A DNA stretch of 64,000 nucleotides, taken from assembly GCF_035825295.1 (NCBI RefSeq), contig NZ_JAYMGI010000002.1:5008501-5072500 (forward strand), in the 5' to 3' direction. A program made the translations under genes and the position numbers. The DNA comes from Actinacidiphila sp. DG2A-62 (GTDB taxonomy: Bacteria; Actinomycetota; Actinomycetes; Streptomycetales; Streptomycetaceae). The notes under the pieces were generated by a model. The model did not search any database, was not told the origin of the DNA, and saw nothing but the letters and a program-made list of their open reading frames with translations. Numbering within the stretch: the first letter of the stretch is position 1; every line of letters starts with the position of its first letter. Shown here piece after piece: positions 6,131 to 30,578 of this stretch.

Positions 6131-6156
6131 GAGGGCTGCTCCTTGGGCGGGTTGGG

Positions 6157-6963: not shown

Positions 6964-7073
6964 GGCGGATTCCTTCGCGGGCGCTGGTCGGGATGGGGCG
7001 GCGGGCGAGGGGCGTTCTGCGGATGCCGGGCATGCGGGGTTCCTTCCGGTGCTGGTGCCGGTGCGGGGTGGGG

Positions 7074-8249: not shown

Positions 8250-8286
8250 CAGAGCTGGCCTTGGAGCGAGAGGCGGGGGCGGCCAG

Positions 8287-9393: not shown

Positions 9394-9436
9394 GACGGCT
9401 TCCTCAGATGGTCGGAGCGGCGGCGGGCCGACGGGG

Positions 9437-9928: not shown

Positions 9929-9954
9929 GGACGCTCCTGGGTCGAATCCGGTGA

Positions 9955-14621: not shown

Positions 14622-15917
14622 TCACGATTCGGAAGACGGCCTCATCGCTCCTGGCTCGGAGCGGCTGACCGGCGCGACCGCCGGGCTCGAAGTGCCGTCG
14701 TCGGAGACCCCGGTGTCGGTTGTGGCGGGCCGGGTGATCAGCGGCGGGATGCCGGGGCGCTGGATGAGTGCGCGGCCCCGGTCACCTGGGGTGTCGCCGG
14801 GGGCGTCGTCCTCGTTGTAGCGGAAGGTGGTCTTGGGTGGCGGTGTGCCGTCGATGCCTTCCTTGCTGAGGTGAGACCCGGCCGGGTTGATGCCGGTGGC
14901 GACGCCGTCCGTGTCGGCGCCGGGCACCTGGCTGGGCCCCTGGGGCGCGGGGGCGCCGGTGCCGGCCTGCACGGCGAGCGTGCCGGCGGTCTTGGCCGCG
15001 CCCGCGGCGACCGCGATGCCGGCGATGCCGGTGCGGTGCAGGTCGTCGTGCCCGCCGCCGTCGCTCGCCCAGTGCACGAACTTGTACGTGGCGTAGGGGC
15101 AGACCAGGACCAGGACCATGACGACGAGTCCGGCCATCGCGTCGGACAGCGCGGACAGTCCGTCCGCGGAGTCGCTCTGGCCCATCGCGGACACGCCGAT
15201 CAGGAAGACCACGGTCATCAGCAGCTTGGAGACGACGAGGGTGGCGGTGGCCTCGATCCAGCCGCGCCGCCAGCGTTTGGCCACGTCCCAGCCGCCTGCG
15301 GCGCCGGCGAACACCGCCAGCGCCACCAGGACCAGGACGCCGACCTTGCGGGCGACCATGACGCCCCAGTACATGAACGCCCCGATCGCCATGCCCAGGG
15401 CGACCAGCGAGGGGACGCCCCAGCCGAGCCCGTACATCGGCCCCAGCTCACCGACCTTGATCACCCGGCGTACCGCGTCGTCCACGTTGGTGTCCGCGGC
15501 TTGGAACAACCCGTCGGACAGCGCGTCGACGACCGTGATGGCCACCGTGGTGAACGCGACGGCGCAGAAGCTGAACAGGACGCCGAGCATCGTGCCGATC
15601 GCGGCCTGCGCGAGGGCGCGTTCGTCGCGGCGCCAGGCGGCGAACATCAGCTGCAGGCAGAACGTGCCGACCGTCAGGGCCAGGCCGATCGGGAGCAGCA
15701 GCTCGTAGTTGCTGCGGAACCAGGGCGCGTCGAGGTCGATCGCGGTGGTCTCGTTGACGGCCTTGGCCGCGAGGTCGGCGGCGCTGGCGGCGAGATCGCC
15801 GGCGGACTTCGCCAGCCAGGCGCCGATGCCGTCGGTGACGGCGGTGCCGGTGCTGGAGACGACGCCGCCGACGGCGTCGCACACCTTGTCCATCAGGGGG
15901 AGGTCGCAGGCTCCCAT
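14622..15917 (-). CDS. Polytopic conjugation membrane protein (VirB6/TrbL-like, SCO6881 type)
   Basis: 431 residues, ATG at 15917 with GGAGG six bases upstream. The N-terminus (MGACDLPLMDKVCDAVGG) leads to an amphipathic region and then at least six hydrophobic helices between ~75 and 290 (YELLLPIGLALTVGTFCLQL, IGTMLGVLFSFCAVAFTTVA, VGVLVLVALAVFAGAAGG, LLMTVVFLIGVSAM, DAMAGLVVMVLVLVCPYATY). The C-terminal ~130 residues are hydrophilic. Size and topology match VirB6/TrbL inner-membrane channel proteins. The preceding gene overlaps its start by about 25 bp as the sequence stands. It belongs to the same operon as the SCO6880-family and ATPase genes. Confidence 0.78.
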   Translation of the reverse strand: MGACDLPLMDKVCDAVGGVVSSTGTAVTDGIGAWLAKSAGDLAASAADLAAKAVNETTAIDLDAPWFRSNYELLLPIGLALTVGTFCLQLMFAAWRRDERALAQAAIGTMLGVLFSFCAVAFTTVAITVVDALSDGLFQAADTNVDDAVRRVIKVGELGPMYGLGWGVPSLVALGMAIGAFMYWGVMVARKVGVLVLVALAVFAGAAGGWDVAKRWRRGWIEATATLVVSKLLMTVVFLIGVSAMGQSDSADGLSALSDAMAGLVVMVLVLVCPYATYKFVHWASDGGGHDDLHRTGIAGIAVAAGAAKTAGTLAVQAGTGAPAPQGPSQVPGADTDGVATGINPAGSHLSKEGIDGTPPPKTTFRYNEDDAPGDTPGDRGRALIQRPGIPPLITRPATTDTGVSDDGTSSPAVAPVSRSEPGAMRPSSES

Positions 15918-16645
15918 GGCGGAACCTCCTTCCAAGTGTGGGTGGTTGAGGGGGTCAGGGCGCGACGTCGGGCAGGACGCCGGCGAGGGCGCAGGACCGG
16001 TCGGGCCTGGCACTGGACGGCGAGGGTGACCGCGCGGGCCTCGGCGCCGCCGCGGGGGGATCCGGTCCAGGCGATCTGCTGGTGGCCGGTGACGGTGACC
16101 GCGTAGATGTACGCGGTCGCGAACGCCGCCGGGTCGGCCTGCATCGCCTGCGTGAACGAGGCGGGGATGTGCGCCTCGGCGACGGTCGCGGTGGCGAACT
16201 GGGCGTTGTCGGCCATCCGTTCCCACAGCACCGGGGACGGGACCTGGGCGTCGACCGAGGCGGGGTCGACGTACCTGGTCTCGGTGGTCATCCACCCGCG
16301 GAGGGCGGTCAGCAGCTCGGGCTGGGAGTACGCGCGGGTGTCGTACGACCACAGCGCGAGGGCTGCGGCCTTCGCAAAGGCGACCGGGTCATGGGTGTCC
16401 GGCGGCGCGGGCAGCGTGGTGGTCACGCCGTGCGGCGGCGGTGTCGTTGCCGGCCCGGGGGAGCCCGGCGCGGAGGAAGCCGAAGTCGCCGGCTGCATCG
16501 TTGTCTTGGCAGAGGAGCGGCCGTCGCGGGTGAGGTAGGCGACGAGCCCGGCGACGGCGACGAGCACCACCAGGGCCGAGACGCCGAGCAGCATGCGGCG
16601 GCGCGCCTGACTCAGGCGGCTGAGCTTCGCGGAGCCGGCGGGCAT
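15893..16645 (-). CDS. VirB8-like conjugal transfer protein, C-terminus probably frameshifted
   Basis: 250 residues as read, ATG at 16645 overlapping the upstream stop (ATGA). A cytoplasmic basic start (KLSRLSQARRRM) is followed by one transmembrane helix at ~18-37 (LLGVSALVVLVAVAGLVAYL), a Thr/Pro linker, and a periplasmic-type domain (DPVAFAKAAALALWSYDTRA, ATATVAEAHIPASFTQAMQ, TAYIYAVTVTGHQQIAWTG) consistent with a VirB8/NTF2-like fold. From about residue 231 the codons lose GC-rich third positions. The +1 frame reads SCALAGVLPDVAP then stops at 15955-15957, leaving a clean gap before the next ribosome site. That alternative end is probably the true one. Confidence 0.7.
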   Translation of the reverse strand: MPAGSAKLSRLSQARRRMLLGVSALVVLVAVAGLVAYLTRDGRSSAKTTMQPATSASSAPGSPGPATTPPPHGVTTTLPAPPDTHDPVAFAKAAALALWSYDTRAYSQPELLTALRGWMTTETRYVDPASVDAQVPSPVLWERMADNAQFATATVAEAHIPASFTQAMQADPAAFATAYIYAVTVTGHQQIAWTGSPRGGAEARAVTLAVQCQARPVLRPRRRPARRRALTPSTTHTWKEVPPWEPATSP

Positions 16646-16953
16646 CAGTGGACCTGCGATCCGAGGTTGCTGAAGAACGCCACGATGCCGTTGGCGGCGC
16701 CGAGCAGGAGGGCCGCGCCCGCGGAGACCAGGACGCCCTTCTTGCCGTTGGCCTCGGCCTGGTGGCCGCCGGAGTGGTGGCCCCAGGCCCACACCCCGGC
16801 GCTGACCGCCATCGCCCCGACCACCGCGATGATCCCGAACAGGTTGATCGAACCCATCACCTGCTTGAGCACGGACAGGCCCGGCAGCCCGCCCTCGTTC
16901 GGCTTGATCCCGGGGTCGTAGGCGAGCGGTGTCACCTTGTCGGCGAGAAACAT
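16645..16953 (-). CDS. Small two-helix membrane protein of the transfer operon (DUF6112-like)
   Basis: 102 residues, ATG at 16953 (MFLADKVTPLAYDPGIKP). Two hydrophobic helices are separated by a His/Gly-rich turn: LFGIIAVVGAMAVSAGVWAW (~41-60) and GVLVSAGAALLLGAANGIVA (~77-96). The stop overlaps the next ATG (ATGA), implying translational coupling to the VirB8-like gene. Small double-helix proteins at this place are the pilin or VirB2/TrbC position in many type IV systems; the DUF6112 label is from memory. Whether it polymerises is unknown. The longer upstream frame is not supported. Confidence 0.72.
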   Translation of the reverse strand: MFLADKVTPLAYDPGIKPNEGGLPGLSVLKQVMGSINLFGIIAVVGAMAVSAGVWAWGHHSGGHQAEANGKKGVLVSAGAALLLGAANGIVAFFSNLGSQVH

Positions 16954-17061: not shown

Positions 17062-18213
17062 TCAGACGACGCGGCGGGCAGCGAGGATCTGCGGCTTCCA
17101 CTCGGCGAGGGTGTTGATGTCGACGACGGCGCCCGTGTGCGGGGCGTTGATGATCAGCCCGGAGCCGATGTACATCCCGACGTGCTCGGGGGCGGCAGCG
17201 GTGCCCTCGGTGAAGACGAGATCACCGGGCTGAAGAGCGTTCGCCGACACCGGCCTGCCCTCGTGGACCTGGGTGTACGTCGTCCGCGAGAGGGCGATCC
17301 CGGCGGCCTTGTACGACTGCTGCATCAGCGACGAGCAGTCGCAGCGCTGCATCGGGTCCGGGCCGTGCGCATCGGTGCACGACCCGCCCCACTGGTACGG
17401 CGTGCCGAGCTGGCCGAGCGCCCAGCGGATCGCGGTCTGCACCTTCACCGGAGCGCTCGCGGGGATCGTGTATCCGGCCGGCACCGAGCCCGGCGGCATG
17501 ACCCCGAAGCCCGTACCGTCCCCGCCCGGCCCGCAGCCCCCGCCAATACCCGCGTGCACCGGGCTGGTCGTGGTGTCCGAGGAGACGGGAGTTGGCGTTG
17601 CGGAGCCGGTTGGTGCCAGCAGCGGTTCGAGCGCCTTGTGCAGCGCGGTGGCCAACGGCTCCCACGTCGCGTACGCATCGGGGAAGCCCGACTTCTGCAC
17701 CGCCTGGGCAGCCTGTGCGACCGACAGCGACTGCCAGCCCGGCACCTGCTCCAGCACCTGGTAGAACATGGTCGAGGCGTGGACCGGGTCGAGGATCTCG
17801 CTCGCAGTACCCCAGCCCTCGGAGGGCCGCTGCTGGAACAAGCCCAGGCTGTCGCGGTCGCCGTAGGCGAGGTTGCGCAGACCGCTCTCCTGCAGCGCCG
17901 TCGCCAGCGCCACGACCTGCCCGCGGGCCGGAATGCCCATGGCCAGGCCCGTAGCGGCGATGGTCTTGGCGTTGGGCACCTGCTCGGCCGGATCGTCCAG
18001 CCCCGCAACCCTGACGGTGCCGGCACTGCTGCCGTCCAGAATCGCCCGGACCTGAGCGGCAACCGCCGCCGTATCCACAGCCTGCGCGCCCCCGGTGGAA
18101 CACGAGGCCGCCGCGCTGCCGGCCGTGATGCCCAGCAACGGAACGGCCAGCAGCAGCGGACCGGCGGCGGCCAGACCGACGACGACTCCGGCGGTCTTCT
18201 TCACCGCCGCCAC
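17062..18213 (-). CDS. Secreted NlpC/P60 hydrolase with lytic-transglycosylase-like domain (VirB1 role)
   Basis: 383 residues from GTG 18213; a second GTG at 18204 (MKKTAGVVVGLAAAG) gives a more typical signal peptide and has GGTGGCGG just upstream. After the signal peptide, residues ~80-200 hold a goose-type or lytic transglycosylase-like segment (LATALQESGLRNLAYGDRDS, then LGLFQQRP) with Glu109 as candidate acid. A Thr/Ser linker follows. The C-terminal ~130 residues are an NlpC/P60 peptidase with Cys293 (RCDCSSLMQQSYKAAG) and His344 (PEHVGMYIGSG). The combination cleaves both glycan and peptide of peptidoglycan, as expected for the wall-opening subunit of a Gram-positive transfer system. 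It is the first gene of the block. Confidence 0.85.
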   Translation of the reverse strand: MAAVKKTAGVVVGLAAAGPLLLAVPLLGITAGSAAASCSTGGAQAVDTAAVAAQVRAILDGSSAGTVRVAGLDDPAEQVPNAKTIAATGLAMGIPARGQVVALATALQESGLRNLAYGDRDSLGLFQQRPSEGWGTASEILDPVHASTMFYQVLEQVPGWQSLSVAQAAQAVQKSGFPDAYATWEPLATALHKALEPLLAPTGSATPTPVSSDTTTSPVHAGIGGGCGPGGDGTGFGVMPPGSVPAGYTIPASAPVKVQTAIRWALGQLGTPYQWGGSCTDAHGPDPMQRCDCSSLMQQSYKAAGIALSRTTYTQVHEGRPVSANALQPGDLVFTEGTAAAPEHVGMYIGSGLIINAPHTGAVVDINTLAEWKPQILAARRVV

Positions 18214-18785: not shown

Positions 18786-19532
18786 ATGACCTACACGCTG
18801 CACCGAGGCGACGCCCTCACCGTACTCAAGACCCTTCCCGACCAGTCCGTGCACGCCGTCATCACCGACCCGCCGTACAACAGCGGCGGGCGCACCAGCT
18901 CCGATCGCACCGGCCGTACCGCCCGCGCCAAGTACGTCACCGCGGGAAGCGCGCACGACCTCGCCGACTTCCCCGGTGAGAACCGCGACCAGCGCTCGTA
19001 CCGCTCCTGGCTGACGGAACTGCTCACCGAGTCCTACCGCGCCGCGGTCGAGCACGCGGTCGCCGCGGTCTTCTCCGACTGGCGCCAGGAACCCACCACA
19101 AGCGACGCCCTGCAGATGGCCGGCTGGACATGGTCCGGCACCATTCCCTGGATCAAGCCGGCGAGCCGCCCCCGCAGGGGCGGCTTCAAGCAGGCCGCGG
19201 AGTTCGTCACCTGGGGCGTCAAAGGCACCCTCGACCACAGCCGCAACCTCTACCTGCCCGGCCACTTCATCGCCTCCCAGCCCCGCAAGGACCGGGTCCA
19301 CATCACCCAGAAGCCGATCGAGGTCATGCGGCAGCTCGTCCGCATCTGCCCCGAAGGCGGCACCGTCCTCGACCCGTTCACCGGCAGCGGCACCACCGGA
19401 GTCGCCGCCCTGCGCGAAGGCCGCCACTTCGTCGGCATCGAACTGTCCGACCACTACGCCGCCATCGCCGAACGCAGGCTCCAAGCCGAGCTGACCCAGG
19501 ACGACTTCATCCTGGCCGGACCGGAAGAGTGA
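18786..19532 (+). CDS. DNA adenine/cytosine-N4 methyltransferase (beta-class order)
   Basis: 248 residues, ATG at 18786 (MTYTLHRGDALTVLK) after a weak GAAAGG. Catalytic motif IV, DPPYNSGG, is at residues 28-35. The SAM-binding motif, DPFTGSGTTGVAALREG, is at 196-212, followed by GIELSDHYAAIAERRL. Motif IV before motif I with a central target-recognition stretch is the beta-class arrangement; DPPY is most often N6-adenine. No cognate restriction gene of classical type is adjacent. The convergent gene 100 bp downstream encodes a PD-(D/E)XK-like protein. It may protect the mobile region or mark epigenetic state. Confidence 0.88.
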   Translation: MTYTLHRGDALTVLKTLPDQSVHAVITDPPYNSGGRTSSDRTGRTARAKYVTAGSAHDLADFPGENRDQRSYRSWLTELLTESYRAAVEHAVAAVFSDWRQEPTTSDALQMAGWTWSGTIPWIKPASRPRRGGFKQAAEFVTWGVKGTLDHSRNLYLPGHFIASQPRKDRVHITQKPIEVMRQLVRICPEGGTVLDPFTGSGTTGVAALREGRHFVGIELSDHYAAIAERRLQAELTQDDFILAGPEE

Positions 19533-19632: not shown

Positions 19633-20565
19633 TCACGTCGCCTCGAACGCCCGCCGGACCAGCGGGCCCGCTTTCTCCAGGTCGGCCGCCGACGCTATCC
19701 GGACTTCCAGGTCCCCGGTCCCGAGGTGCCCGATGCCGCGCATGTCGCGGGTGAAGCCCTCCTCCAGCGCGACGGTGCCCGGGTCGAGTCTGAGGTAGAC
19801 GAGGATCGCCTCGTGCTTAGGGCGGAAGAGGACCGATGCGACGTTCACAAGCCGGCGGTAGGCGATGTAGTGCCGGAGAGGGACGACGTCGACGTCCCCC
19901 CGGGCAGTGAGCGTGTCGTCCAGCTCGGCGTACAGGTCCCGCAAGCTCTCCGGGACAAGGCCGCCGCCTGCCCGCGTGGCGCCGGGCGCCGTCGGCACAT
20001 CGACGGTCGCCGCCTTTCGCTCCAGGGCGCGCCGGGACGAGGCAGCCTTCACTGAGCCTGGCGAGGAGTCCACGAGCAGCAGGCTCAACAGCCCGCCCTC
20101 GAAGAGGCGGTAGCGCACCAGGTCGATCCGCTCGGGCAGCCGCTGCACGGCGACGCGGTCGTGGTGGGAGAAGCCGGCGGCGATGCATACCATTCGAGGC
20201 TGACGCCAGTCGATGGTCTCGGCGGCCTCCGCGCCGAGCACCTTCCGGACGAGCGCCTCAATCTCGTGATGCGCGGACTCCAGCCAGGACAGGTAGGAGA
20301 CGGCCTGAGACAGCACTCCGTTGTCGGAGCCCCTTTTGTACTCGATGACCACCGGGGTGCCGTTCTCGTCCAGACCGAGGGTGTCGATCCGTCCTCGGTG
20401 CCACGGCCCCGTCGGGTACTCCGACGCCAGGAACCGAATGCCGAGCATGGCCTCAAGACCGGCCTCGACCCGACGCTGCAAGTCCACTTCCAGCGCCACC
20501 GTCGATCCGGACAGCTCGACGTCCCGCCCGTCCGCGTCCCGCCGGAACAACATCAACTCGGCCAC
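19633..20565 (-). CDS. PD-(D/E)XK-like nuclease with C-terminal DUF5655 domain
   Basis: 310 residues, ATG at 20565. The N-terminal part contains a restriction-like core: RGRIDTLGLDENG followed by VVIEYKRGSDNGV, giving Asp61, Glu75 and Lys77 as the D...ExK triad, with an upstream helix (DLQRRVEAGLEAMLGIRFL). The C-terminal ~120 residues (LYAELDDTLTARGD, IAYRRLVNVASVLFRPKHEA, ILVYLRLDPG) match a DUF5655-type domain in pattern. Such proteins are often annotated as endonuclease-like and occur in defence loci; no experimental role is assumed. It is divergent from CRISPR array 1, whose leader shares its upstream region, and convergent with the methyltransferase. Confidence 0.72.
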   Translation of the reverse strand: MAELMLFRRDADGRDVELSGSTVALEVDLQRRVEAGLEAMLGIRFLASEYPTGPWHRGRIDTLGLDENGTPVVIEYKRGSDNGVLSQAVSYLSWLESAHHEIEALVRKVLGAEAAETIDWRQPRMVCIAAGFSHHDRVAVQRLPERIDLVRYRLFEGGLLSLLLVDSSPGSVKAASSRRALERKAATVDVPTAPGATRAGGGLVPESLRDLYAELDDTLTARGDVDVVPLRHYIAYRRLVNVASVLFRPKHEAILVYLRLDPGTVALEEGFTRDMRGIGHLGTGDLEVRIASAADLEKAGPLVRRAFEAT

Positions 20566-20782: not shown

Positions 20783-21419
20783 GTCTTCCCCGCGCGTCCG
20801 GGGATGCTCCGACCCTCGGGGCGACCGTGGGCCCGCTGCTGGTGTCTTCCCCGCGCGTCCGGGGATGCTCCGTCGGCGTGCGTGATGCGGTAGTCACAGT
20901 CGCGGTCTTCCCCGCGCGTCCGGGGATGCTCCGGCGCACGAGCTGGGCGTCAGGGTCGTCACCGAGTCTTCCCCGCGCGTCCGGGGATGCTCCCTGCGCG
21001 TCCGGCGTGACCGGCGCCGATCGCGTGTCTTCCCCGCGCGTCCGGGGATGCTCCCAGGTCGGCGCGGCGGCCGGCGTCATCCCGGGCGTCTTCCCCGCGC
21101 GTCCGGGGATGCTCCGGTGCGTTGCTTGGTCGTAGGCGAAAAGCGGGAGTCTTCCCCGCGCGTTCGGGGATGCTCCGGCCGCTGAGGATCTTCACCAGGC
21201 CGGCGGGCAGTCTTCCCTGCGCGTCTGGGGATGCTCCGGACTTCACCGCCGCAGTCGGCAAGGCTTTGGGTCTTCCCCGTGCGTCCGGGGATGCTCCCGT
21301 GATCGGGATCACCCCGGCGTACGCGATCCCGTCTTCCCCGCGTGTCCGGGGATGCTCTGCGCGGGATAGGTCGGCATTGCATGGACGGACCGCCTTTCCC
21401 CGTGTCTTCGGGCACGAGC
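20783..21419 (+). CRISPR. Type I-E CRISPR array 1: ten clear repeats plus one decayed repeat
   Basis: 28-nt repeats start at 20783, 20844, 20905, 20966, 21027, 21088, 21149, 21210, 21270 and 21331. Spacers are 33 nt, except one of 32 nt (21238-21269). The consensus begins GTCTTCCCCGCGCG, continues TCC, and ends GGGGATGCTCC, with a short CCCCG/CGGGG stem. Repeats 1-6 are identical, repeat 7 has one change, repeats 8-10 have one or two, and an eleventh heavily decayed copy sits on the same 61-nt period at 21392. The leader is therefore on the left and the oldest spacers on the right. The array lies directly upstream of the cas genes in the same direction. Spacer targets could not be searched. 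Confidence 0.95.
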
Positions 21420-21575
21420 GGTCAGTGTGGTCGGCGGCTCGCGTCCTCCTCGTGGTCGTGGCGTCAGCGTTCCTGCGGTGTCGGGCCGGTTGGGTTGAAG
21501 CCTGTTGAGGGGGATGCCGCCGCTGACCTGGTGTGGGGTCGCGTTGTCAGTGGGTGGCTCTATGTTCGCAGCGTG

Positions 21576-22442
21576 ATGGAGAACGGTGCGGAGTCCGGGC
21601 GTTGCGGCTTATGTGCGCTGGACTTGGGGTTGTGGGGGAAGTCTGACGGTTTGCCGCCGGGGGTGGTGTACCCGCTGATCTGGCATCTGCTGGATACGGC
21701 GGCGGTGGCGTGGTGCGTGTGGGACGTGTACATGAGTGGGCCCCAGCGGGAGTCGTTCGCGCGGGGGCTGGATCTTGATCCGGACAGGCCGGAGGATCTG
21801 GAGCGGGCTCGGCGTCTGCTGGCGTGCTGGGCGGGGTGGCACGATCTGGGGAAGATCACGGATCTTTTCCAGCGCAAGGACTCCCTGGCGTTTTCGCGGT
21901 TGTCGGGCTACCCGCGGCGGAGCCCGGATGACCCGCGTGCTTCGCATGGGTGGGCAACTCATCTGGCGCTGGCCGGTGTTCTGCCTGGGCGCGGGTACGA
22001 CGCCGAGGGCAGGGACCTCGGGCTTGTGTCGGCGGCGCATCGGGTCGCTCAGGTGTTGGGTGGTCATCACGGGCGGTTCTTCGAGCAGCCCAGGCGTCGT
22101 GAGGTGCGGCATCCGGCCATCCGGGGGCGGTGGCTGGGTGCGGGCAGGTGGGAGGAGCAGCGGCTCGCGCATCTGGCGGCGGTCGCCTCGGTGACCGGTG
22201 ATCCGGTGCCGCCGACGCGGGTGCGCGTCACAGCGGCGGTGCTCGCGGCGCAAGTGGTGGTGCTGGCGGACTGGCTGGCGTCCCAGGACGACTTCGTGGT
22301 GGGGCAGTTGGAGGCGTCCCGCCCGCAGGCGGGGGAGCCGGACATCGCGGGGCACTGGGCTCGGACGCTCACCGCGGTGCCGGGCCTGCTTATGGGCGCG
22401 GGGCTCGGGCTGCCGCAGTGGGAGGCGACTCCGCTGTCATGA
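21576..22442 (+). CDS. cas3'': Cas3'' HD nuclease (separate subunit)
   Basis: 288 residues, ATG at 21576 (MENGAESGRCGLCALDLGLW). It carries the full HD set of Cas3 nucleases: His in WHLLDTAAVAWCVW, the HD pair in WAGWHDLGKITDLFQ, His in SHGWATHLALAGVL, the HH pair in LGGHHGRFFEQ, and Asp in VVVLADWLASQDDF. In most type I-E systems this domain is fused to the helicase; here it ends with a stop whose last bases overlap the helicase ATG (ATGA). It would nick and degrade the displaced target strand. It is the first gene of the cas operon, about 155 bp after the end of array 1. Confidence 0.88.
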   Translation: MENGAESGRCGLCALDLGLWGKSDGLPPGVVYPLIWHLLDTAAVAWCVWDVYMSGPQRESFARGLDLDPDRPEDLERARRLLACWAGWHDLGKITDLFQRKDSLAFSRLSGYPRRSPDDPRASHGWATHLALAGVLPGRGYDAEGRDLGLVSAAHRVAQVLGGHHGRFFEQPRRREVRHPAIRGRWLGAGRWEEQRLAHLAAVASVTGDPVPPTRVRVTAAVLAAQVVVLADWLASQDDFVVGQLEASRPQAGEPDIAGHWARTLTAVPGLLMGAGLGLPQWEATPLS

Positions 22443-24340
22443 CGTTCAAGGACTGGTTCGGTTTCGACCCGAACTCGTTGCAGGCTTCGTTGCTCGACGG
22501 GTTGCCCGGATGCGCGTCCCCGGGTGCGCCCGGACTGCTGATCGTGATGTCCGATACGGGAAGCGGCAAGACGGAGGGCGGGCTGTGGGCGTCCCGCTGG
22601 CTGGGCGGTCCGCGAGCCGGTGTCCATCTGGCGTTGCCGACGATGGCGACGACGGACGCCGCCCACCGGCGGGTGGAGCGGTGGGCGAGGAAGGCTCTCG
22701 CGGCATCCTCGCCGGTGACGCTGGCTCACGGCCAGGCCGGCTGGAACCGGACACCGTCGCGGGTTCTCGCGCACGCGGGCGAGATCGACACCGCCCCGGC
22801 GGGATGGTTGTTCGGGCACGGCCGGCCGGTGCTGGCCGGGGTGACCGTTTCGACGATCGACCAGGTGCTGATGGCGGTGCTGCGGGTAAGGCACAACGTG
22901 CTGCGACTCGGGGGACTGACCCGCAAGGTGCTGGTGGTGGACGAGTGCCACGCCTACGACCCGTACATGCAGACGCAGTTGCGCCGGGCGCTGGCCTGGT
23001 GGGGCGCATTGCGTGTGCCCGTGGTGTTGATGTCCGCGACGCTGCCGGCCGCGGTGGCGACGTCCCTGGCTGCTGCTTACCTCTCGGGTTCGGCGCCGCG
23101 CCTTCCGGCGCCCGAGGTGCGTCCGGCGTATCCGGGCTGGCTGTACATCGACGGGGACACGGGTGCGGCGACGGTCTCGAAGCAGATCGCCTCCGACCGC
23201 CCCAGGACACTGCAGATGCGCCTGCTGCCGATGCGAGGTTCGTCGCGGGCCGGGCGGCCAGGTCAGGTACCGCCTGCTGACCGGGCGCGCGCAGGCGTGA
23301 TCACCGGACTGTTCGAGGAGTCCCCGGGCGCGCTGCGCGTACTCACCGTCTGCAATACGGTTGCCTCCGCGCAGCACACCGCCCGGGCGCTGGCGGATCT
23401 GCTGGACGACGACGTGGAGATCTTCTTGATCCACGCCCGCTACCGGGTGCGTGACCGCCGTGACCGGACCGGCAGCGTGGAGGCGGTCTTCGGGAAGGAC
23501 GGCGCACGACGACCCGAGCGCGCGGTGCTGGTCACCACTCAGGTGTGCGAGGCGTCCTTGGACCTGTCCCTGGACCACGTCGTCACCGACCTGGCGCCCA
23601 TGCCCCAGATCGTCCAGCGCGCCGGGCGGGGTCGGCGCCATGAGACAGGGGCGGACGTGCGGGTGCCGGTGACCGTGCTGATCCCGCAGGACAGTGAAGG
23701 CGACTGGGACGACGGGCGGTGGCGCAGGATCTACAGTCCGGCGCTCATCCGCTCCACTCGCCAACTGCTCGCCACGCACGGCGACATCAGCGTGCCTGAC
23801 GACGTGCAGGACCTGGTGGACACGGTGTGCGCGGGGTGGGATGCCGACACTCCCGAGCCGGATGTGGCCGCGCACCTGCGGGGCGAACAGACCAAGGCCG
23901 ACGCTGCCGTTCCGGTGGTCATCCCGCATCCGGACGAACTGACCGACCTGTTCGACCTCACCGACCTTCCGATCCCCGACATCGAGGCGGCGACCCGCTA
24001 CAACCTCGACAGCGTGACCGTGCTGCCGGTGTGGCGCACCGAGGACGGATCGCTCGCCCTGGAACCGGATGCAAGCCTCATGCTGCCCGAACAGGTGCCC
24101 GCAGACCTGCGTCCGGTCCACGAGCGGCTGTTGTCGATCCCGCGCGCCGCATGGCAGGACGCCCTGGAATCCGAAGACGCGCTGCCCGATGCGTGGCAGG
24201 AGGACGGCCGTCTCGGACGTGTGCTCCTGCTGGTCCACCCGGCCGGCGGTCAGGCACCTGCACCGGCCGGTTGGACGGTCTTCTACGACGACAACCTCGG
24301 CCTGGTCACCTGGCCGCCTGCCCCACGGGAGCGCTCGTGA
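22439..24340 (+). CDS. cas3': Cas3' superfamily-2 helicase (separate subunit)
   Basis: 633 residues, ATG at 22439 overlapping the nuclease stop. Motifs in order: Walker A SDTGSGKTEGG (~36-46), DEAD-box variant VVDECHAYD (~165-173), SAT motif LMSATLPAAV (~197-206), motif V TTQVCEASLDLSLDHVVTD, and the arginine finger QRAGRGRRH. The C-terminal ~150 residues form the accessory domain seen in Cas3 proteins. It is the ATP-driven 3'-5' motor recruited by Cascade, working with the upstream HD subunit. Together the two subunits add up to about 921 residues, the usual length of a fused Cas3. Confidence 0.92.
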   Translation: MTFKDWFGFDPNSLQASLLDGLPGCASPGAPGLLIVMSDTGSGKTEGGLWASRWLGGPRAGVHLALPTMATTDAAHRRVERWARKALAASSPVTLAHGQAGWNRTPSRVLAHAGEIDTAPAGWLFGHGRPVLAGVTVSTIDQVLMAVLRVRHNVLRLGGLTRKVLVVDECHAYDPYMQTQLRRALAWWGALRVPVVLMSATLPAAVATSLAAAYLSGSAPRLPAPEVRPAYPGWLYIDGDTGAATVSKQIASDRPRTLQMRLLPMRGSSRAGRPGQVPPADRARAGVITGLFEESPGALRVLTVCNTVASAQHTARALADLLDDDVEIFLIHARYRVRDRRDRTGSVEAVFGKDGARRPERAVLVTTQVCEASLDLSLDHVVTDLAPMPQIVQRAGRGRRHETGADVRVPVTVLIPQDSEGDWDDGRWRRIYSPALIRSTRQLLATHGDISVPDDVQDLVDTVCAGWDADTPEPDVAAHLRGEQTKADAAVPVVIPHPDELTDLFDLTDLPIPDIEAATRYNLDSVTVLPVWRTEDGSLALEPDASLMLPEQVPADLRPVHERLLSIPRAAWQDALESEDALPDAWQEDGRLGRVLLLVHPAGGQAPAPAGWTVFYDDNLGLVTWPPAPRERS

Positions 24341-25899
24341 CGCGCCGACCTTCGTTCGACCTGGCCACCGAGCCCTGGATCAGCGTCCTTGACCACGACG
24401 GGGCACAGCTGCAGGTCGGACTGCGCCAAGCCCTGCGGGACGCGCACCTGATCGCCGATCTGGCACTGCCGTATCCGGCGGCGTACGGCGCTTTGTACCG
24501 AGTCCTTGCGGCCCTGGTCTTCCGGATCACGGGCCTGGACCAGCCACCCTTCGGCGAGGACTGGTACCGGCGCCGCAACAAGCTGTTCGCCACGCCGTTC
24601 AGCCCGGGCGCCATCGAGTCCTACTTCACCGCACACGCCGAAGGCTTCGACTTGTACGGCGACCGCGGGTTCTTCCAGGACCCGAGGCTGAGGACGGACT
24701 GCAAGAAGACGTCGGGCATCAACAAACTCGCCTTCGGCAGGGCAGCGGGCAGCGCGCGGCCGTGGTTCGCGGACAAGCACGGTGACGACGGGCAGAAGCC
24801 CCTGGCGTCTGCCGAGGCCGCTGTCCATCTGCTGATGCAGGCCTACTACGGGGCGGGGGGCACGGTCACGACCCGCCGGCACGGCAACCTCAACACCCAG
24901 GCCGGCTGCCCGGCCGCACCCTTGCGAGGGACCGTCGGGTTCCACCCCTTGGGGCCCGACCTGCGCACGACACTGCTGGCTCATCTGACCGCACCGACCG
25001 CTTACGCGCACGGCCGCCCCGATCGCGCCCCTTGGGAGCACGCCGAACACACGGACCCCACACTTCCGGTGCCTGCTCCTTCCGGACCGGTGTCGCTGCT
25101 GGTCGGTCGTATGCGCCACGCCATCCTGCTCGTCCCCGGCCCCGACGCCTCCACCGCCGAGGACGCCACCATCAGCTGGGGCGCCCGCACCCCGGCCGAC
25201 AAGCCCAAGCCGGGCTACTTCGTCGAGCCGTTCCCCGACCCCTACCTGTCCTACGGATACTCCAAGACCGGCATGCCCTCCACTCCCGTCGACGCCGACG
25301 GGGGCCGTCACCTGTTCCGCGACCTGGACGTGCTGCTCAACGCCCCCGAGTCCCGCGGCCCCGCAGCCGGACCGCACCCCCGAACCCGGCCCGCGGTTCT
25401 TCACGCCTGCGACCACCTGCCCGACGCGGTCATCGACACCCTGCGACTACGGGTCGTGGGAGTGGACCAGGACCGTAGCCAGACCGTGGACCGCCAGTGG
25501 TGGACCAGCACCACGCCGCCGCTGCTCGTCCACAGCGCGCAGCGCGACCCGCAGGCCGCGGAACTCATCGAACAGGCCGTACGCGAGGCGGATGCCAGCG
25601 CGTGGAAGCTCAACAAGGCCCTGGCCGCCGCGTTCGCCGACCGACCCAAGGACAAGACGGCCCCCAAACGACGCGAAGCGCGGGTCGCACGCCACTACTG
25701 GCCCAGGGCCGACACCGCCTTCTGGCGCCTGTTCGACGGCGACGACCTTTCCCAAGCGCAGGCTGCCATGCGCCGCGCCGCGCTGGACGCCTTCGACGAC
25801 ATCACCGCCGGGATGGCACGCAGCCTGTCCGCCTGCCGCCGCGTGGCCGAAGCGCGTGCCCTGCTCCCCCTGCCCAGAAAGAACACTGACGATGCCTGA
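24337..25899 (+). CDS. casA (cse1): Cas8e / Cse1, Cascade large subunit
   Basis: 520 residues from GTG 24337, overlapping the helicase stop (GTGA). Family-typical start: MTRRPSFDLATEPWISVLD, then VGLRQALRDAHLIADLAL and PYPAAYGALYRVLAALVF. Further hallmarks are FFQDPRLRTDCKKTSGIN, AVHLLMQAYYGAGG and VSLLVGRMRHAILLVPG. It recognises the PAM and recruits Cas3 in type I-E interference. The C-terminal helical bundle (AELIEQAVREADASAWKLN, SLSACRRVAEARALLPLP) is present, so the protein looks intact. It overlaps the next gene by 8 bp. Confidence 0.9.
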   Translation: MTRRPSFDLATEPWISVLDHDGAQLQVGLRQALRDAHLIADLALPYPAAYGALYRVLAALVFRITGLDQPPFGEDWYRRRNKLFATPFSPGAIESYFTAHAEGFDLYGDRGFFQDPRLRTDCKKTSGINKLAFGRAAGSARPWFADKHGDDGQKPLASAEAAVHLLMQAYYGAGGTVTTRRHGNLNTQAGCPAAPLRGTVGFHPLGPDLRTTLLAHLTAPTAYAHGRPDRAPWEHAEHTDPTLPVPAPSGPVSLLVGRMRHAILLVPGPDASTAEDATISWGARTPADKPKPGYFVEPFPDPYLSYGYSKTGMPSTPVDADGGRHLFRDLDVLLNAPESRGPAAGPHPRTRPAVLHACDHLPDAVIDTLRLRVVGVDQDRSQTVDRQWWTSTTPPLLVHSAQRDPQAAELIEQAVREADASAWKLNKALAAAFADRPKDKTAPKRREARVARHYWPRADTAFWRLFDGDDLSQAQAAMRRAALDAFDDITAGMARSLSACRRVAEARALLPLPRKNTDDA

Positions 25900-26434
25900 C
25901 ACCGACCCCGCCCAGCCCACCCGAGCCGCAAAGTTCGTCGACCACATCACGGCGCACCTGGCGCGGGGCGGACCCGCCCGACGCGCGCTGCAGACCGGCT
26001 TGCGCCCCTGGCCCGACCGGGAGCCGCCAGGCCCCATGCACCTCTACGTCGCCACCTGGCTGCCCGAAGGCCTCCACCCGGAGCGCCAGCGGGCCTACTA
26101 CACCGTCGCCGCGCTGATGACCACCGCCACCAACCGAGCCGGCACCGGCAGCGGCGTCAGCCTCGGGAAGGCGCTCGGCCTCGCGTCGAGGAGGATCTCT
26201 GCCACCACGACGGAGCTTTCCGTCAAACGCCTCGTCAGGCACAGCCCCGCCGGACCGTACCCGCACCTGCGCGGCGCGATCCGCCTCGTCTCCGCCGCAG
26301 CGGCGCCCCTGGACTGGGCCCGTCTGCTGGACGAACTCGACACCTGGCACTTCCGCGGCGCACGCACCTGCACCCAATGGCAGCAGGACTACTACCGGGC
26401 GACAGGATCGCCCCAGCCCTCCGACAGCGAGTGA
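25892..26434 (+). CDS. casB (cse2): Cas11e / Cse2, Cascade small subunit
   Basis: 180 residues, ATG at 25892 inside the end of cas8e. An all-helical protein with Cse2-like features: AAKFVDHITAHLARGGPAR, RALQTGLRPWPDREPPGPM, YYTVAALMTTATN, SLGKALGLASRRI, VKRLVRHSPAGP, and WARLLDELDTWHFRGART. Length is normal for Cse2 (~160-200). Two copies are expected per Cascade to stabilise the crRNA-target R-loop. Translational coupling on both sides keeps stoichiometry. Confidence 0.88.
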   Translation: MPDTDPAQPTRAAKFVDHITAHLARGGPARRALQTGLRPWPDREPPGPMHLYVATWLPEGLHPERQRAYYTVAALMTTATNRAGTGSGVSLGKALGLASRRISATTTELSVKRLVRHSPAGPYPHLRGAIRLVSAAAAPLDWARLLDELDTWHFRGARTCTQWQQDYYRATGSPQPSDSE

Positions 26435-26439
26435 TCACC

Positions 26440-27678
26440 ATGACCAAGACCAGCATCCCCGGCGTGCACATCGACGTGCACATCATTCAGACCCTGCCGC
26501 TGTCGGGACTCAACCTCGACGCCGACGGCAATCCCAAGTCCGTCGTCATCGGTGGCGTCCAGCGGGCCCGGCTCAGCCCCCAAGCGCAGAAGCGGGCCGC
26601 GCGCCTGCACCTCGAAAACGTGCTGCCCGAGGAGGCCGCCGTCCGCACCAGGCGCCTGATCCACACCGTCAGCGATCTGCTGATCGCACAGAAGTGGCCC
26701 AAAGCCGTCGCCGAGCATGCCGCCGTCGACGTCTTCGTCGCCGCCTCCGCCGGCACCATGGCCCTCGGCAGCACAAGCGACAGTGAAGACGAGGAGAGCA
26801 ACTCCAAAGACCCGCTGGCCACGGCCGCCCTGATCTACACCCCCGCGACAACCGCCGGAAAGCTGGCCGCCGTTGCTGCGACACACCGCGACGCCTACGA
26901 GGCCGCCGTCGCAGCCGGAAAGAGCCTGCCCAAGCCCAAGGCCAAGGGCGGCAAGAGCAAGGGAAAGGCCGCGAAGCCCGAGGACGCCACGATCGCCGAC
27001 CCGAAGGAACTGGCCGGGCTTCTCGCCTCCGCCAACGGCAGCATCGCTCTGCTGGGAAGGACCCTGATGGAGATCGGCGGCGCCGAACGCGACTCCTCCG
27101 TGCAGGTCGCCTCCGCCTTCACCACCCACGAAGCAGTCGTCGAAGTCGACTTCTTCGTCGCCGTCGACGACTACGCCGCCGCCAGCGAAGGCGTGCCCGA
27201 TGTCGGACAGATGGGCGACAGTCAGCAGACCGCCGGCACCTTCTACCGCTACACGACCATCAACCTGCCCAGCCTGCTGCAGGACATCGACAACGACACC
27301 GACCTCGCCCGCCGGCTGTGCGAGGCCTTCATCGACGGGTTCATCCACACCTTGCCCGCCACCGGACAGACCAACTCCGCCGCCTGGACCCTGCCCGACC
27401 TCGTCCACATCACCGTACGCAGCGACCGCCCCGTCAACCTGTCCACGGCCTTCGACAAGCCCATCCGCACCCAATACGACGGCCACGTTGGCCCGTCGAT
27501 CGCCGCCCTGGCCACCTACGCCCACAGCATCGAGAAGATCACCGCCAACCGCGGAGTCGTCCACGCCGTCCACGCCCACACCGCCACCGACGAACTCCGC
27601 GGCCTGGGCAAGCGCATCGACAACTACACCGACCTGGTGCGTAAAGCCCTCGACGCCGCCTTCGGGACCACCGCGTGA
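26440..27678 (+). CDS. cas7e (casC): Cas7e / CasC, Cascade backbone subunit
   Basis: 412 residues from ATG 26440; a GTG at 26431 overlapping the cas11 stop is possible. Start VHIDVHIIQTLPLSGLNLD, followed by KSVVIGGVQRARLSPQAQKR, is the classical Cas7e RRM opening. Later hallmarks include ALLGRTLMEIGGAERDSSVQ-like text, VASAFTTHEAVVEVDFF, FYRYTTINLPSLLQDI and a C-terminal DNYTDLVRKALDAAFG. The protein is somewhat long because of an acidic Ser/Asp/Glu patch (~111-124) and a Lys/Gly-rich loop (~161-180, KSLPKPKAKGGKSKGKAAKP) that interrupt the fold, probably surface loops. Six copies normally coat the crRNA. Confidence 0.92.
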   Translation: MTKTSIPGVHIDVHIIQTLPLSGLNLDADGNPKSVVIGGVQRARLSPQAQKRAARLHLENVLPEEAAVRTRRLIHTVSDLLIAQKWPKAVAEHAAVDVFVAASAGTMALGSTSDSEDEESNSKDPLATAALIYTPATTAGKLAAVAATHRDAYEAAVAAGKSLPKPKAKGGKSKGKAAKPEDATIADPKELAGLLASANGSIALLGRTLMEIGGAERDSSVQVASAFTTHEAVVEVDFFVAVDDYAAASEGVPDVGQMGDSQQTAGTFYRYTTINLPSLLQDIDNDTDLARRLCEAFIDGFIHTLPATGQTNSAAWTLPDLVHITVRSDRPVNLSTAFDKPIRTQYDGHVGPSIAALATYAHSIEKITANRGVVHAVHAHTATDELRGLGKRIDNYTDLVRKALDAAFGTTA

Positions 27679-28412
27679 CCACCGACCAGGCCCTCGTCCT
27701 GCTGTTCGCCGGCCCCCTGCAGGCATGGGGCGTGCGCGGCGGCTTCAACGACTACCGCGACACCCTGGACCACCCCACCCGCTCCGGGGTCCTCGGTTTC
27801 TGCGCCTGCGCTCTGGGCCGCCCACGCGGTTCAGCTCCAGGCGACCTGGCCGAACTGGACCTGGCCGTCCGCATCGACCGACCGGGAACCCTCATGGAGG
27901 ACTTCCACACCATCGGCGGCCAATCCGATGAGGAGGTGGTCCCTTCGGCCGACGGCAGCCGACGCCGCGGCGCCTTCCTCACCCGTCGCGCCTACCGCGC
28001 CGACGCCGCGTTCACCGTCGCCCTCACCGGCCCCGATCCCGTCCTGCGCACCCTCCAAGGAGCCCTGGACCACCCCGTCTACACCCCCTACCTCGGCCGG
28101 AAAAGCTGCCCACCCGCCACGCCCTACAACCTGGGCATCCACCACGGCACCGTCGAGGACATCCTCGCCACCGCCCCCGTGGACCGGGCAAAACCCGCGC
28201 GTGCGGACACCGTCACCGCCGAGGTCATCACCACCGTCCCCCACAACCACACCGCCGGCACCCACGCCGTCCACGACGATCCACGGGGCGGTCGCGCCTT
28301 CGGCCAGAGGTTCCTGGCCCGCACCACCATCAGCCTGCCGGCCGACCTGTGCGTCGGCAACGACGCGCCCGCGCGGTACGAACGCCTGCACCACTACCGA
28401 TACACCACCTGA
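27675..28412 (+). CDS. cas5e (casD): Cas5e / CasD, crRNA 5'-handle binding subunit
   Basis: 245 residues from GTG 27675, overlapping the cas7 stop (GTGA). Begins with the Cas5e signature ALVLLFAGPLQAWGV, followed by TLDHPTRSGVLGFCACALG. It also shows TLMEDFHTIGGQSDEEVV, FLTRRAYRADAAFTVALTG and HPVYTPYLGRKSCPPATPYN, all conserved features of I-E Cas5. It caps the 5' end of the crRNA in Cascade. It is followed by 51 bp and then cas6e. Confidence 0.92.
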   Translation: MTTDQALVLLFAGPLQAWGVRGGFNDYRDTLDHPTRSGVLGFCACALGRPRGSAPGDLAELDLAVRIDRPGTLMEDFHTIGGQSDEEVVPSADGSRRRGAFLTRRAYRADAAFTVALTGPDPVLRTLQGALDHPVYTPYLGRKSCPPATPYNLGIHHGTVEDILATAPVDRAKPARADTVTAEVITTVPHNHTAGTHAVHDDPRGGRAFGQRFLARTTISLPADLCVGNDAPARYERLHHYRYTT

Positions 28413-28463: not shown

Positions 28464-29099
28464 ATGGCTCTCGCCTACCTCACCGAGATCCGCCTCAACA
28501 CACGCGCACGCGAAGTACGCGCCGACCTGAAAAACGGCGGACGCGGCTTCCACCACCGCACCGCCCGCCTGGCACCCCCCGAAACGGCCACCGCCGACGC
28601 CCGCCTCCTCTGGCGCCTCGACACCTTCCGCAACGGCCTGCGCCTCCTGGTCCAAACCCCCCAGGAACCCGACCTGTCCACACTCCCCGACACCTACGGC
28701 ACCGCCCGCACCCACCCCCTCGATCGGCACCTCGAACGACTCACCCAAGGCCAGAGGGTCCGCTACCGCCTCGCCGCCAACCCCGTACGCACCGGCACCG
28801 ACGAGATCACCGGCATGCCGCTGAAGAACCGCATCCCCTGCAAAGGAGAAGAGATCACCCGCTGGTTCAACCACCGCACCGAGACCCTCGGCCTCGCTCC
28901 CGAGACCCTCGCCACCTACCAGCTCGCCCCCGTCACCGGCACACGAGACCACAAACCCGGACTACGCCTCACCCTCACCCGCTACGACGGCATCGCCACC
29001 ATCACCGACCCCGCAGCCCTGCGCACCGCTATCCTCACCGGCATCGGCCGCGGCCGCGCCTTCGGCGCCGGCCTCCTCACCGTCGCAGCCATCGCCTGA
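28464..29099 (+). CDS. cas6e (casE): Cas6e / CasE, pre-crRNA endonuclease
   Basis: 211 residues, ATG at 28464 (MALAYLTEIRLNTRAREVRA), a few bases after a GAAGGA-type site. The N-terminal RAMP fold includes GGRGFHHRTARLAP, with a His pair in the catalytic region, LWRLDTFRNGLRLLVQTPQ, and a basic strand VRYRLAANPVRTGTD. The C-terminus carries the glycine-rich GIGRGRAFGAGLLTVA loop that defines Cas6 proteins. It cuts the repeat stem to release mature crRNAs. It is the last cas gene; array 2 begins 77 bp later and no cas1 or cas2 follows. Confidence 0.92.
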   Translation: MALAYLTEIRLNTRAREVRADLKNGGRGFHHRTARLAPPETATADARLLWRLDTFRNGLRLLVQTPQEPDLSTLPDTYGTARTHPLDRHLERLTQGQRVRYRLAANPVRTGTDEITGMPLKNRIPCKGEEITRWFNHRTETLGLAPETLATYQLAPVTGTRDHKPGLRLTLTRYDGIATITDPAALRTAILTGIGRGRAFGAGLLTVAAIA

Positions 29100-29176: not shown

Positions 29177-29509
29177 GTCTTCCCCGCGCGCTCGGGGATG
29201 CTCCGCTCTCAAGAGCTGATGATCATCCATCGCACTGGTCTTCCCCGCGCGCTCGGGGATGCTCCGCAGCGCGTCCCGTTCTGGGGGACCGCGCTGCGGT
29301 CTTCCCCGCGCGCTCGGGGATGCTCCGCGGCCGAAGGGCGCGGCCGGGTCCGGCTCCGTGTCTTCCCCGCGCGCTCGGGGATGCTCCGTGCGGTACGCCC
29401 AGCCCGAGGCCCGCGGCGTCGTCCTCCTTGCGCGCTCGGGGATGCTTCGTTGTCCTTGCCGCCGAGCGCGGCGTTCCAGACGTCTTCCCCGCGCGTTCGG
29501 GGACGCTCT
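29177..29509 (+). CRISPR. Type I-E CRISPR array 2: six repeats, five spacers
   Basis: 28-nt repeats start at 29177, 29238, 29299, 29360, 29421 and 29482 on a strict 61-nt period with 33-nt spacers. Repeats 1-4 are identical; they match array 1 except that the two bases after GTCTTCCCCGCGCG are CT instead of TC. Repeat 5 has three differences and repeat 6 (ending GGACGCTCT) another few, so decay again lies on the right, away from the leader. Orientation is the same as the cas genes and array 1. No further repeat is visible at the next expected position (29543). Confidence 0.95.
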
Positions 29510-29834: not shown

Positions 29835-29876
29835 CTTGTAAAGCGTAGGTCGTCGGTTCGAACCCGACAGGGGGCT
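29835..29876 (+). mobile_element. tRNA-Thr(TGU) 3'-half: probable att site of an integrated element
   Basis: The sequence folds only as the 3' half of a tRNA: anticodon loop CTTGTAA with anticodon TGT (29837-29839), 3' anticodon arm AGCGT, variable loop AGGTC, perfect T-stem GTCGG/CCGAC around TTCGAAC, acceptor arm AGGGGGC and discriminator T at 29876. The bases just upstream (GATCGCTCTCGGG) cannot pair with AGCGT and do not form a D-arm, so the 5' half is absent. Tyrosine integrases that target tRNA genes leave precisely such a duplicated 3' half at the far end of their element. With the tRNA on the plus strand, the element should lie to the left and the intact gene beyond it. No integrase is visible beside this end. 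Confidence 0.72.
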
Positions 29877-29928
29877 CTTCGCTTGCCCGGCGGTGCGCCG
29901 GTCGTTGGCCTGGCCCGGGGCGCAGGGA

Positions 29929-30351
29929 TCAGGCGCTGGGTGCCGCGTAGGTCTCGATGGCGCAGTGGGTCGCCCCGCTGCGTGCGATTCTGGCGTCGCT
30001 CGTGACGAGCGGTACGCCGAGGCTCTCGGCGAGGGCCACGTAGTGTGCGTCGTAGGCGGAGAGGTTGTGCGAGAGGTCGCGTACCCGCTGCCACAGGACC
30101 AGCGTCGGGTGCAGGTCGAGTGCCAGGGCCTGGTAGTCGGTGATCGCCTTGGCGGCTTCCTTCTCCGTGATCTTCGGCTTGCCCCCGCGTCGCCCGCGCG
30201 CCAGGCCGAGGACGGCTGAGGTGATCTCGTAGTCCAGCAGGCCCGGTGCTGCGAGAGCATCCGCGCGACCCACGCGCTCGCGGATCGCGGTCCCGGTGGC
30301 GCCGTGGTCGAGGAGGAAGTGCACGAGGCTGGAGCAGTCGATGACGATCAA
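29929..30351 (-). CDS. vapC: VapC-type PIN-domain toxin
   Basis: 140 residues from TTG 30351 (MIVIDCSSLVHFLLDHGA), which overlaps the antitoxin stop by four bases. PIN-domain acids are visible: Asp5 in VIDCSSLV, Glu in LLDYEITSAVLGLARG, Asp in LSAYDAHYVALAESLGVPL, and Asp in VTSDARIARSGA. Such proteins are Mg-dependent ribonucleases, often cutting tRNA or rRNA, that inhibit growth unless held by their antitoxin. The gene pair lies only about 50 bp from the tRNA-Thr fragment, on the presumed chromosomal side of the junction. Confidence 0.88.
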   Translation of the reverse strand: MIVIDCSSLVHFLLDHGATGTAIRERVGRADALAAPGLLDYEITSAVLGLARGRRGGKPKITEKEAAKAITDYQALALDLHPTLVLWQRVRDLSHNLSAYDAHYVALAESLGVPLVTSDARIARSGATHCAIETYAAPSA

Positions 30352-30578
30352 CGCCGTTCACGTCCGTCCTCGATGGCGTCGAGGATGTCGGTCGTGCTGA
30401 GCGCTGTGCGGGTTTCCCGTTCGAGGCGTGCCGCCATCTCCGCGAGAGTGGGCTTGGCGGCCTCCCGGGAAAGGAGTTCCAGGGCGTACGCCTGGAGGGA
30501 CTTGCCCGCCTGTGCGGCGCGCACCTTCAAGGCGTTGACGGTGTCGTCGGGAACGTCCCGAATGGTGATGGCGGTCAT
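30348..30578 (-). CDS. vapB: VapB/FitA-type ribbon-helix-helix antitoxin
   Basis: 76 residues, ATG at 30578. The N-terminus TAITIRDVPDDTVNALKVRA is a ribbon-helix-helix DNA-binding start of FitA/VapB type, and the C-terminal part (AARLERETRTALSTTDILDA, then IEDGRERR) supplies the toxin-binding tail. It precedes and is coupled to the toxin gene, so the pair should be autoregulated. A TAAAAT hexamer only about ten bases before the ATG suggests a short or nearly leaderless transcript. Confidence 0.86.
   Translation of the reverse strand: MTAITIRDVPDDTVNALKVRAAQAGKSLQAYALELLSREAAKPTLAEMAARLERETRTALSTTDILDAIEDGRERR

Follow-up and report, generated by a model that had tools for sequence, protein, structure and literature searches.

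A 95.4-kb integrated element of conjugative type in a tRNA-Thr gene of Actinacidiphila sp. DG2A-62, with two CRISPR-Cas loci and a spacer matching its own transfer gene

The systems closest to the element described here are of three kinds: the ICEs and IMEs that a tyrosine integrase inserts into tRNA genes in Streptomyces and other actinomycetes, the classical members of which use a TraB/FtsK-like translocase; the SCO6880/SCO6881-type conjugation backbone, as on plasmid p1 of Streptomyces angustmyceticus, treated below; and the ICEs known to carry CRISPR-Cas, such as the pKLC102-like ICEs of Pseudomonas aeruginosa with their type I-C system. With the first of these, the element of Actinacidiphila sp. 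DG2A-62 shares a tRNA-Thr target, an att core at the 3′ part of the tRNA and an integrase beside one end; it differs from them in its size of 95.4 kb, its T4SS-type backbone and its two CRISPR-Cas loci, and no match to a TraB/FtsK-like translocase was found among the element genes scanned against families (about half of our own gene calls, from which the cargo was read). Like the pKLC102-like ICEs, it is an integrated conjugative-type element with CRISPR-Cas and a spacer against a conjugative element, whereas here types I-B and I-E occur together, the host is an actinomycete, and the newest spacer matches a transfer gene of the carrier itself. An integrated element with CRISPR-Cas is of a known kind; the two systems and the newest spacer directed to an own transfer gene make this one an unusual variant.

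Regarding its position, the window (the whole stretch of 64,000 nt from which the prediction was made) holds the right-hand 29.8 kb of the element at positions 1-29834, and the remaining 65.6 kb lies to the left of it, at G000:C2:4942918-5008500 (coordinates prefixed C2 refer to this contig; the others are those of the window). The original prediction had read an orphan 3′ half of a tRNA-Thr gene as the right end of an element that extends leftward for more than 29 kb, and both points hold. The fragment, attR, occupies 29835-29877 on the plus strand, ending one base beyond the 29876 first given, and it is an exact 43-bp copy, with 0 mismatches, of the 3′ part of tRNA-Thr(TGT). ARAGORN finds no tRNA in the 64,000-nt window, and an intact tRNA-Thr with anticodon TGT at C2:4942886-4942961; the attL core, C2:4942918-4942960, lies within this gene. 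Both cores have the same orientation, their starts (4942918 and 5038335) are 95,417 bp apart, and in a pairwise alignment the similarity of the two copies ends at both edges of the 43-bp core. A chance origin of the repeat is excluded: the runner-up match to the 43-mer on both strands of a 142.5-kb stretch reaches 25/43, and a 20-mer of the core, with up to two mismatches allowed, occurs twice in the 8.62-Mb genome.

The two flanks, joined to give the expected empty-site sequence, were compared with the genome itself and with 40 relatives. In G006, a genome of the same genus, they align unbroken across the junction over 1514 columns with 84% identity, and the alignment takes in the tRNA as well as the PIN/antitoxin pair on its right side. 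Since an intact tRNA, an exact repeat, an integrase inside attL and the empty site in G006 come together, attL and attR delimit a 95,417-bp element integrated in the tRNA-Thr(TGT) gene, with the tRNA intact at attL and its displaced 3′ part at attR. Both checks proposed with the prediction, a search to the left for an intact tRNA-Thr(TGT) with an integrase and the same repeat, and a search for a relative with an empty site, have thus led to the features sought. Integration was presumably the work of the integrase, recombining attP with the 3′ part of the tRNA.

tRNA genes collect scars, and this tRNA-Thr is an integration hotspot, the contig that holds it having an extra core in at least 11 of the 40 relatives; the fragment might accordingly be the old scar of a lost element, and the CRISPR and conjugation genes ordinary chromosomal ones. 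Against this stand the exactness of the 43-bp repeat, the intact integrase at the other end, the absence of any core in between, and the site in G006, which lacks everything between the ends (a precise deletion in G006 would equally require an element). The scar-only reading was rejected on the empty site, the integrase and the exact repeat, and it is very improbable; that an integrated element with its cargo as described is present can be held with high confidence.

Just outside attR, at 29929-30578, there is a pair of genes for a PIN-domain protein and a FitA-like antitoxin, which directly adjoins the tRNA at the G006 empty site too. No Rfam family reached its gathering score, and three sub-threshold matches were taken as chance.

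As for the integrase, expected at the opposite end of the element, the gene of an intact tyrosine integrase (538 aa; C2:4944199-4945815, minus strand; PF00589 and PF14659) lies 1.24 kb inside attL, with one called gene in between; the residues R, HxxR (as HDLRH), LGHS and Y, read by eye, are present. Relatives of this integrase were found at 116 loci, 80 of which were kept, and 21 had at least 75% identity in the best segment. Thirteen of these 21 close loci had a tRNA-Thr in the fetched stretch (anticodon TGT in five, CGT in eight); the fetched stretches of the other eight, two of which are contigs shorter than 10 kb, had no tRNA (six) or another tRNA (two). The gene between attL and the integrase, G000:C2:4943281-4944102, encodes a 273-aa protein with no Pfam or PADLOC match; relatives with 78-86% identity occur in five integrase loci and on contig C72 of the related genome G008. 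A further integrase match in the genome, a 538-aa open frame at G000:C2:3617799-3618699, stands beside a tRNA-Thr-like match (84%) and is possibly a second element of the same type.

From left to right, the cargo consists of a lanthipeptide-like cluster, a type I-B CRISPR-Cas locus, a group with DnaC-like ATPase, WhiB, DUF2637, MobC-like and relaxase genes, a presumed arsenic group and the conjugation backbone; the right part continues with the RHS-like gene, the T4SS genes, the methyltransferase, the DUF5655 gene, the two-array type I-E locus and, last, attR. The CRISPR-Cas locus, the methyltransferase, the DUF5655 protein, the conjugation genes and the RHS-like gene, which had been predicted to travel together (the last one tentatively), are all between attL and attR. 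The lanthipeptide-like cluster resembles class I, with Lant_dehydr, LanC-like and PCMT proteins. The relaxase is an intact MobA/VirD2-type protein of 590 aa, with the MobC-like protein as its partner. The gene group after it is presumed to be of arsenic genes; the one member scanned is a phosphatase-family protein. A second element-like region of the genome, G000:C2:6205001-6225000, contains a coupling protein without inner stops and second copies of members of the presumed arsenic group, one of them 91% identical.

Within the window, the genes of the conjugation backbone are on the minus strand. The RHS-like gene (1959-5414, minus strand) has an RHS repeat match below the Pfam cut-off and another long minus-strand ORF to its left; next to it are six backbone genes from our own calls (5534-10965), with homologues in related backbones and, for the three of them scanned, no family match. 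Then come a VirB4-like conjugation ATPase (10983-12488; NF045971 below cut-off, with a Walker A motif), a DUF6238 protein (12525-12980), an SCO6880-family conjugation protein (13018-14490; NF042935), an SCO6881-family, VirB6/TrbL-like protein (14622-15917; NF047967), a DUF6112 protein (16645-16953) and an NlpC/P60 peptidase (17062-18213; family match), the DUF6238, DUF6112 and NlpC/P60 proteins belonging to the conjugation module. The DNA methyltransferase gene follows on the plus strand (18786-19532), and that of the DUF5655-type protein on the minus strand (19633-20565); the latter matches the PADLOC candidate defence family PDC-S18, and the homologues of the two in p1, a plasmid of S. angustmyceticus (NZ_CP104318), are annotated as site-specific DNA-methyltransferase and DUF5655, respectively.

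Apart from the RHS-like gene, this backbone shows synteny over most of its length with G008:C72 (at about 59.7-105 kb on the contig) and with p1. On the latter, the genes for DUF5655, methyltransferase, NlpC/P60, DUF6112, SCO6881, SCO6880, DUF6238 and ATPase are ordered as they are here, with 61-85% protein identity; unlike the element, p1 has NACHT and recombinase genes beside DUF5655, and its coupling-protein gene is annotated as one CDS. The content beyond the DUF5655 gene differs in each case: a type I-E CRISPR here, matches to mad2, mad6, mad7 and mad8 in G008, and a NACHT gene in p1. From these three cases (I-E CRISPR, Mad-type, NACHT), the region may be read as an exchangeable defence slot beside a conserved backbone. 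No homologues of the element's cas proteins were found on G008:C72 or in the fetched 41 kb of p1. The mad genes of G008, which belong to a methylation-associated defence system, lie at G008:C72:40001-59900, beside the DUF5655 gene of the related backbone.

The element would be a composite, a reading that we moderately favour: its left half would be of an integrase-relaxase type, with the integrase, MobC, the relaxase, the lanthipeptide-like cluster and the I-B CRISPR-Cas, and its right half would be the conserved SCO6880-type backbone, with its exchangeable defence slot filled by the type I-E CRISPR-Cas. Backbone-gene homologues (E 1e-15, 40% coverage) were absent from the flanks, of up to 10 kb, around the 80 related integrases, and the two halves were therefore observed together here alone. 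It is likewise rather probable that an integrase-MobC-relaxase element and the backbone of a conjugative plasmid have fused or lie in tandem, and that this is not one evolved element: a relaxase relative occurs in 32 of the 80 integrase loci and the SCO6880 backbone in 0 of 80 within the fetched flanks, the backbone is found on a 616-kb plasmid (p1), and a transposase gene lies to the left of the RHS-like gene. What speaks against this is that there is no internal att core, the best internal match being 25/43, so that a single att pair now encloses both halves.

Regarding transfer, the prediction of a conjugation-type element stands as far as the gene content is concerned: a relaxase and T4SS parts are present, with the SCO6880 and SCO6881 proteins above cut-off, the VirB4-like ATPase below it, and NlpC/P60. 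Present self-transfer, instead, is doubtful, because the coupling protein has a frame break and the backbone relaxase is a remnant, in pieces and with part of it absent. The coupling protein of a relative (593 aa) aligns in three frames at C2:4999106-5000865. The first frame change, at residue 141/142, is common to the element, G008 and G220. A second one, at residue 419 in the numbering of the relative's protein, is found only here and is absent in G008 and G220 (three genomes compared), and an assembly or sequencing error is possible at this point (genome completeness 95.57%). A coupling protein without inner stops is encoded elsewhere in the genome, at C2:6223192, and is 64% identical to the relative's plasmid protein. 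On its own, the element has probably lost the ability to transfer itself, and could be mobilisable by way of its second relaxase if helper functions act in trans; since its coupling-protein gene reads as interrupted, it is classed with the integrated elements of conjugative type and not with the working ICEs.

The original prediction had envisaged a single CRISPR on the element. The I-E locus is confirmed, but a second CRISPR-Cas is also aboard: a type I-B locus at C2:4966.4-4976.1 kb, between two arrays and apparently complete with adaptation genes. Its Cas7/Cst2, Cas3 core, Cas1b and Cas2 are above cut-off; Cas5 is above the cut-off of the general model and below that of the I-B model, Cas4 is below cut-off (56.5 vs 65), Cas8b gives a weak match (PADLOC E 9e-10), and Cas6 is assumed from gene position. 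Cas3 keeps its HD, Walker and DExH motifs. The direction of the arrays is given by a leader block common to both, by a repeat that is degenerate at the leader-distal end, and by the position after cas2; the opposite repeat strand, on which the mismatch discussed below would fall at position 13, was rejected by the leader comparison, and the mismatch is at position 24. In I-B array 1 (G000:C2:4966843-4967008), two spacers are identical and the middle one differs by two bases, which suggests a local duplication.

One spacer of this locus bears on what the system may be directed at. The 36-nt I-B spacer at C2:4975771-4975806 matches 35/36 bases at 13153-13188 (minus strand), inside the element's own SCO6880-like gene; among 200 single-base shuffles, the best match anywhere on the element is 26. 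With up to three mismatches, it matches in 394 family genomes only this genome, G008 and G220, the latter two with two mismatches and in homologues of the SCO6880-like gene, and its reversed control has no match in the same 394 genomes. Two further SCO6880-like homologues match at 29/36. All four homologues (34/36 or fewer) have a mismatch at crRNA position 3, in the seed; the single mismatch of the own gene is at crRNA position 24, and position 24 tends not to be read, as structures of type I complexes indicate. The own-gene difference leaves the amino acid unchanged (Val, GTC to GTA), and the other base is found in the spacer and in all four homologues. GTA accounts for 69 of 1816 Val codons in the element and 3 of 42 in the SCO6880-like gene; since it is uncommon but not exceptional there, drift accounts for it no worse than escape does. 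The flank of the matched sequence is GTC on the protospacer strand.

The spacer is leader-proximal, i.e., the newest in its array, so adaptation was active late in the array's history. It was probably acquired from the element's own lineage, either the element itself or a near-identical sibling, and judging from the sequences it would fit sibling exclusion or self-targeting better than an attack on unrelated elements. The prediction of inter-element competition finds backing in this one strong spacer match, but the target is the element's own family, and the best match is the element itself. The I-B system likely took its newest spacer from an SCO6880-like gene of its own lineage, and would then likely block incoming close relatives; escape of the resident copy from cutting could be due to a non-functional PAM, an inactive or repressed system, an inhibitor or tolerated damage. 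It is awkward for a working weapon that the best match of the spacer is the resident itself. The spacer might also be an accident of self-targeting, tolerated since the system is inactive and with no exclusion function, as the 35/36 match in the resident gene, with its sole mismatch at position 24, and the seed mismatch at position 3 in four of four homologues would suggest; the motifs kept in the I-B Cas3, the Cas1 and Cas7 above cut-off and a leader-proximal spacer, which implies adaptation working late, argue otherwise, and we give this accident somewhat less than an even chance.

As for the other spacers, the 32 spacer sequences of the element (31 distinct) were compared with its own DNA and with that of the relatives gathered for the analysis, and only the one just described, out of 32, gave a strong match. 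Wider searches covered three of the 32 in genomes, five in phages and three in plasmids. A type I-E spacer at about 29388 matches a backbone gene of G008 at 28/33, a weak lead; with up to three mismatches, it matches itself alone in 394 genomes, as does a second I-B spacer in 355 genomes. Against phages, three of five spacers had no match and two had partial ones, the best being 26 bases at 92% (E 0.03) in a Mycobacterium phage. Against plasmids, the leader-proximal I-B spacer gave 175 weak records, one of them the homologue on NZ_CP050437 (80.6%), and of two other spacers one had five weak matches and one none. Partial spacer matches upstream of integrases, which are shorter than full spacers, were treated as chance and homology.

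The type I-E locus is on the plus strand. Array 1 (20783-21358) is followed by the HD nuclease part of cas3 (21342-22442; HDLGK motif), the true start of which is uncertain, its open frame overlapping the end of the array, and by the helicase part (22439-24340), the start of which overlaps the HD gene stop as ATGA; the motifs are kept, and a frame-broken cas3 was rejected. Next are cas8e (Cse1/CasA; 24337-25899; TIGR02547), cse2/cas11e (26036-26434; PF09485), cas7 (Cse4/CasC; 26431-27678; TIGR01869), cas5 (27675-28412; PF09704) and cas6e (28464-29099; PADLOC Cas6/Cas6e models), and then array 2 (29177-29509), with 28-nt repeats, the last ones degenerate. The cas genes abut, no gap among them exceeding 136 bases, and the 736 bases from cas6e to attR contain array 2. 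The locus has no cas1, the genome-wide Cas1 search giving on the element the I-B one alone; as judged from spacing and not from a profile, the abutting genes seem to leave no room for cas2.

The prediction had called the CRISPR interference-only. This holds for the I-E locus itself, which lacks cas1, but two Cas1e are encoded by chromosomal I-E loci. Three Cas1 are encoded in the genome, that of the element's I-B locus and two full-length chromosomal Cas1e (TIGR03638, 350.8 and 338.8 bits) at C2:2.54 and 4.31 Mb; the reading of a single Cas1 in this genome was rejected accordingly. The two chromosomal type I-E loci (G000:C2:2531775-2548700 and 4309344-4324854) have Cas1e and long arrays, for which the stretches fetched show 73 and 75 repeats; counting the two of the element, the genome has at least four CRISPR-Cas loci. 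Their 137 I-E spacers (65 and 72) were compared with the element, with a best match of 26/33, a level also reached by shuffles (1/685).

The I-E locus of the element might, in practice, not be limited to interference, if the host Cas1e-Cas2e acquired spacers for its arrays in trans. Such adaptation is possible because chromosomal Cas1e are present, two of them and both full-length, and because the leaders are alike: those of the element's I-E arrays resemble the leaders of the 2.53-Mb locus, with GCAAAGCC and then CAGGTC near the first repeat. The chromosomal repeats, instead, differ from those of the element, none being within three mismatches of its 26-base I-E repeat pattern, and adaptation in trans is held here as a tentative reading, a little short of even.

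In conclusion, a guess based on half a tRNA has become a defined element, with both ends, its integrase and an empty site, and the presumed defence slot beside the conserved backbone would show where such elements keep their weapons. It is a natural case of CRISPR combined with a conjugation module, in which one array appears to record the element's own family. That the I-B system serves sibling exclusion, acting against kin, while the adaptation-less I-E locus draws its spacers from the host Cas1e-Cas2e, is unlikely as a whole; if true, two CRISPR systems on one element would divide the work, one against kin and one fed by the host. Finally, a single spacer and a single gene make the choice between sibling exclusion and mere self-targeting a testable one.
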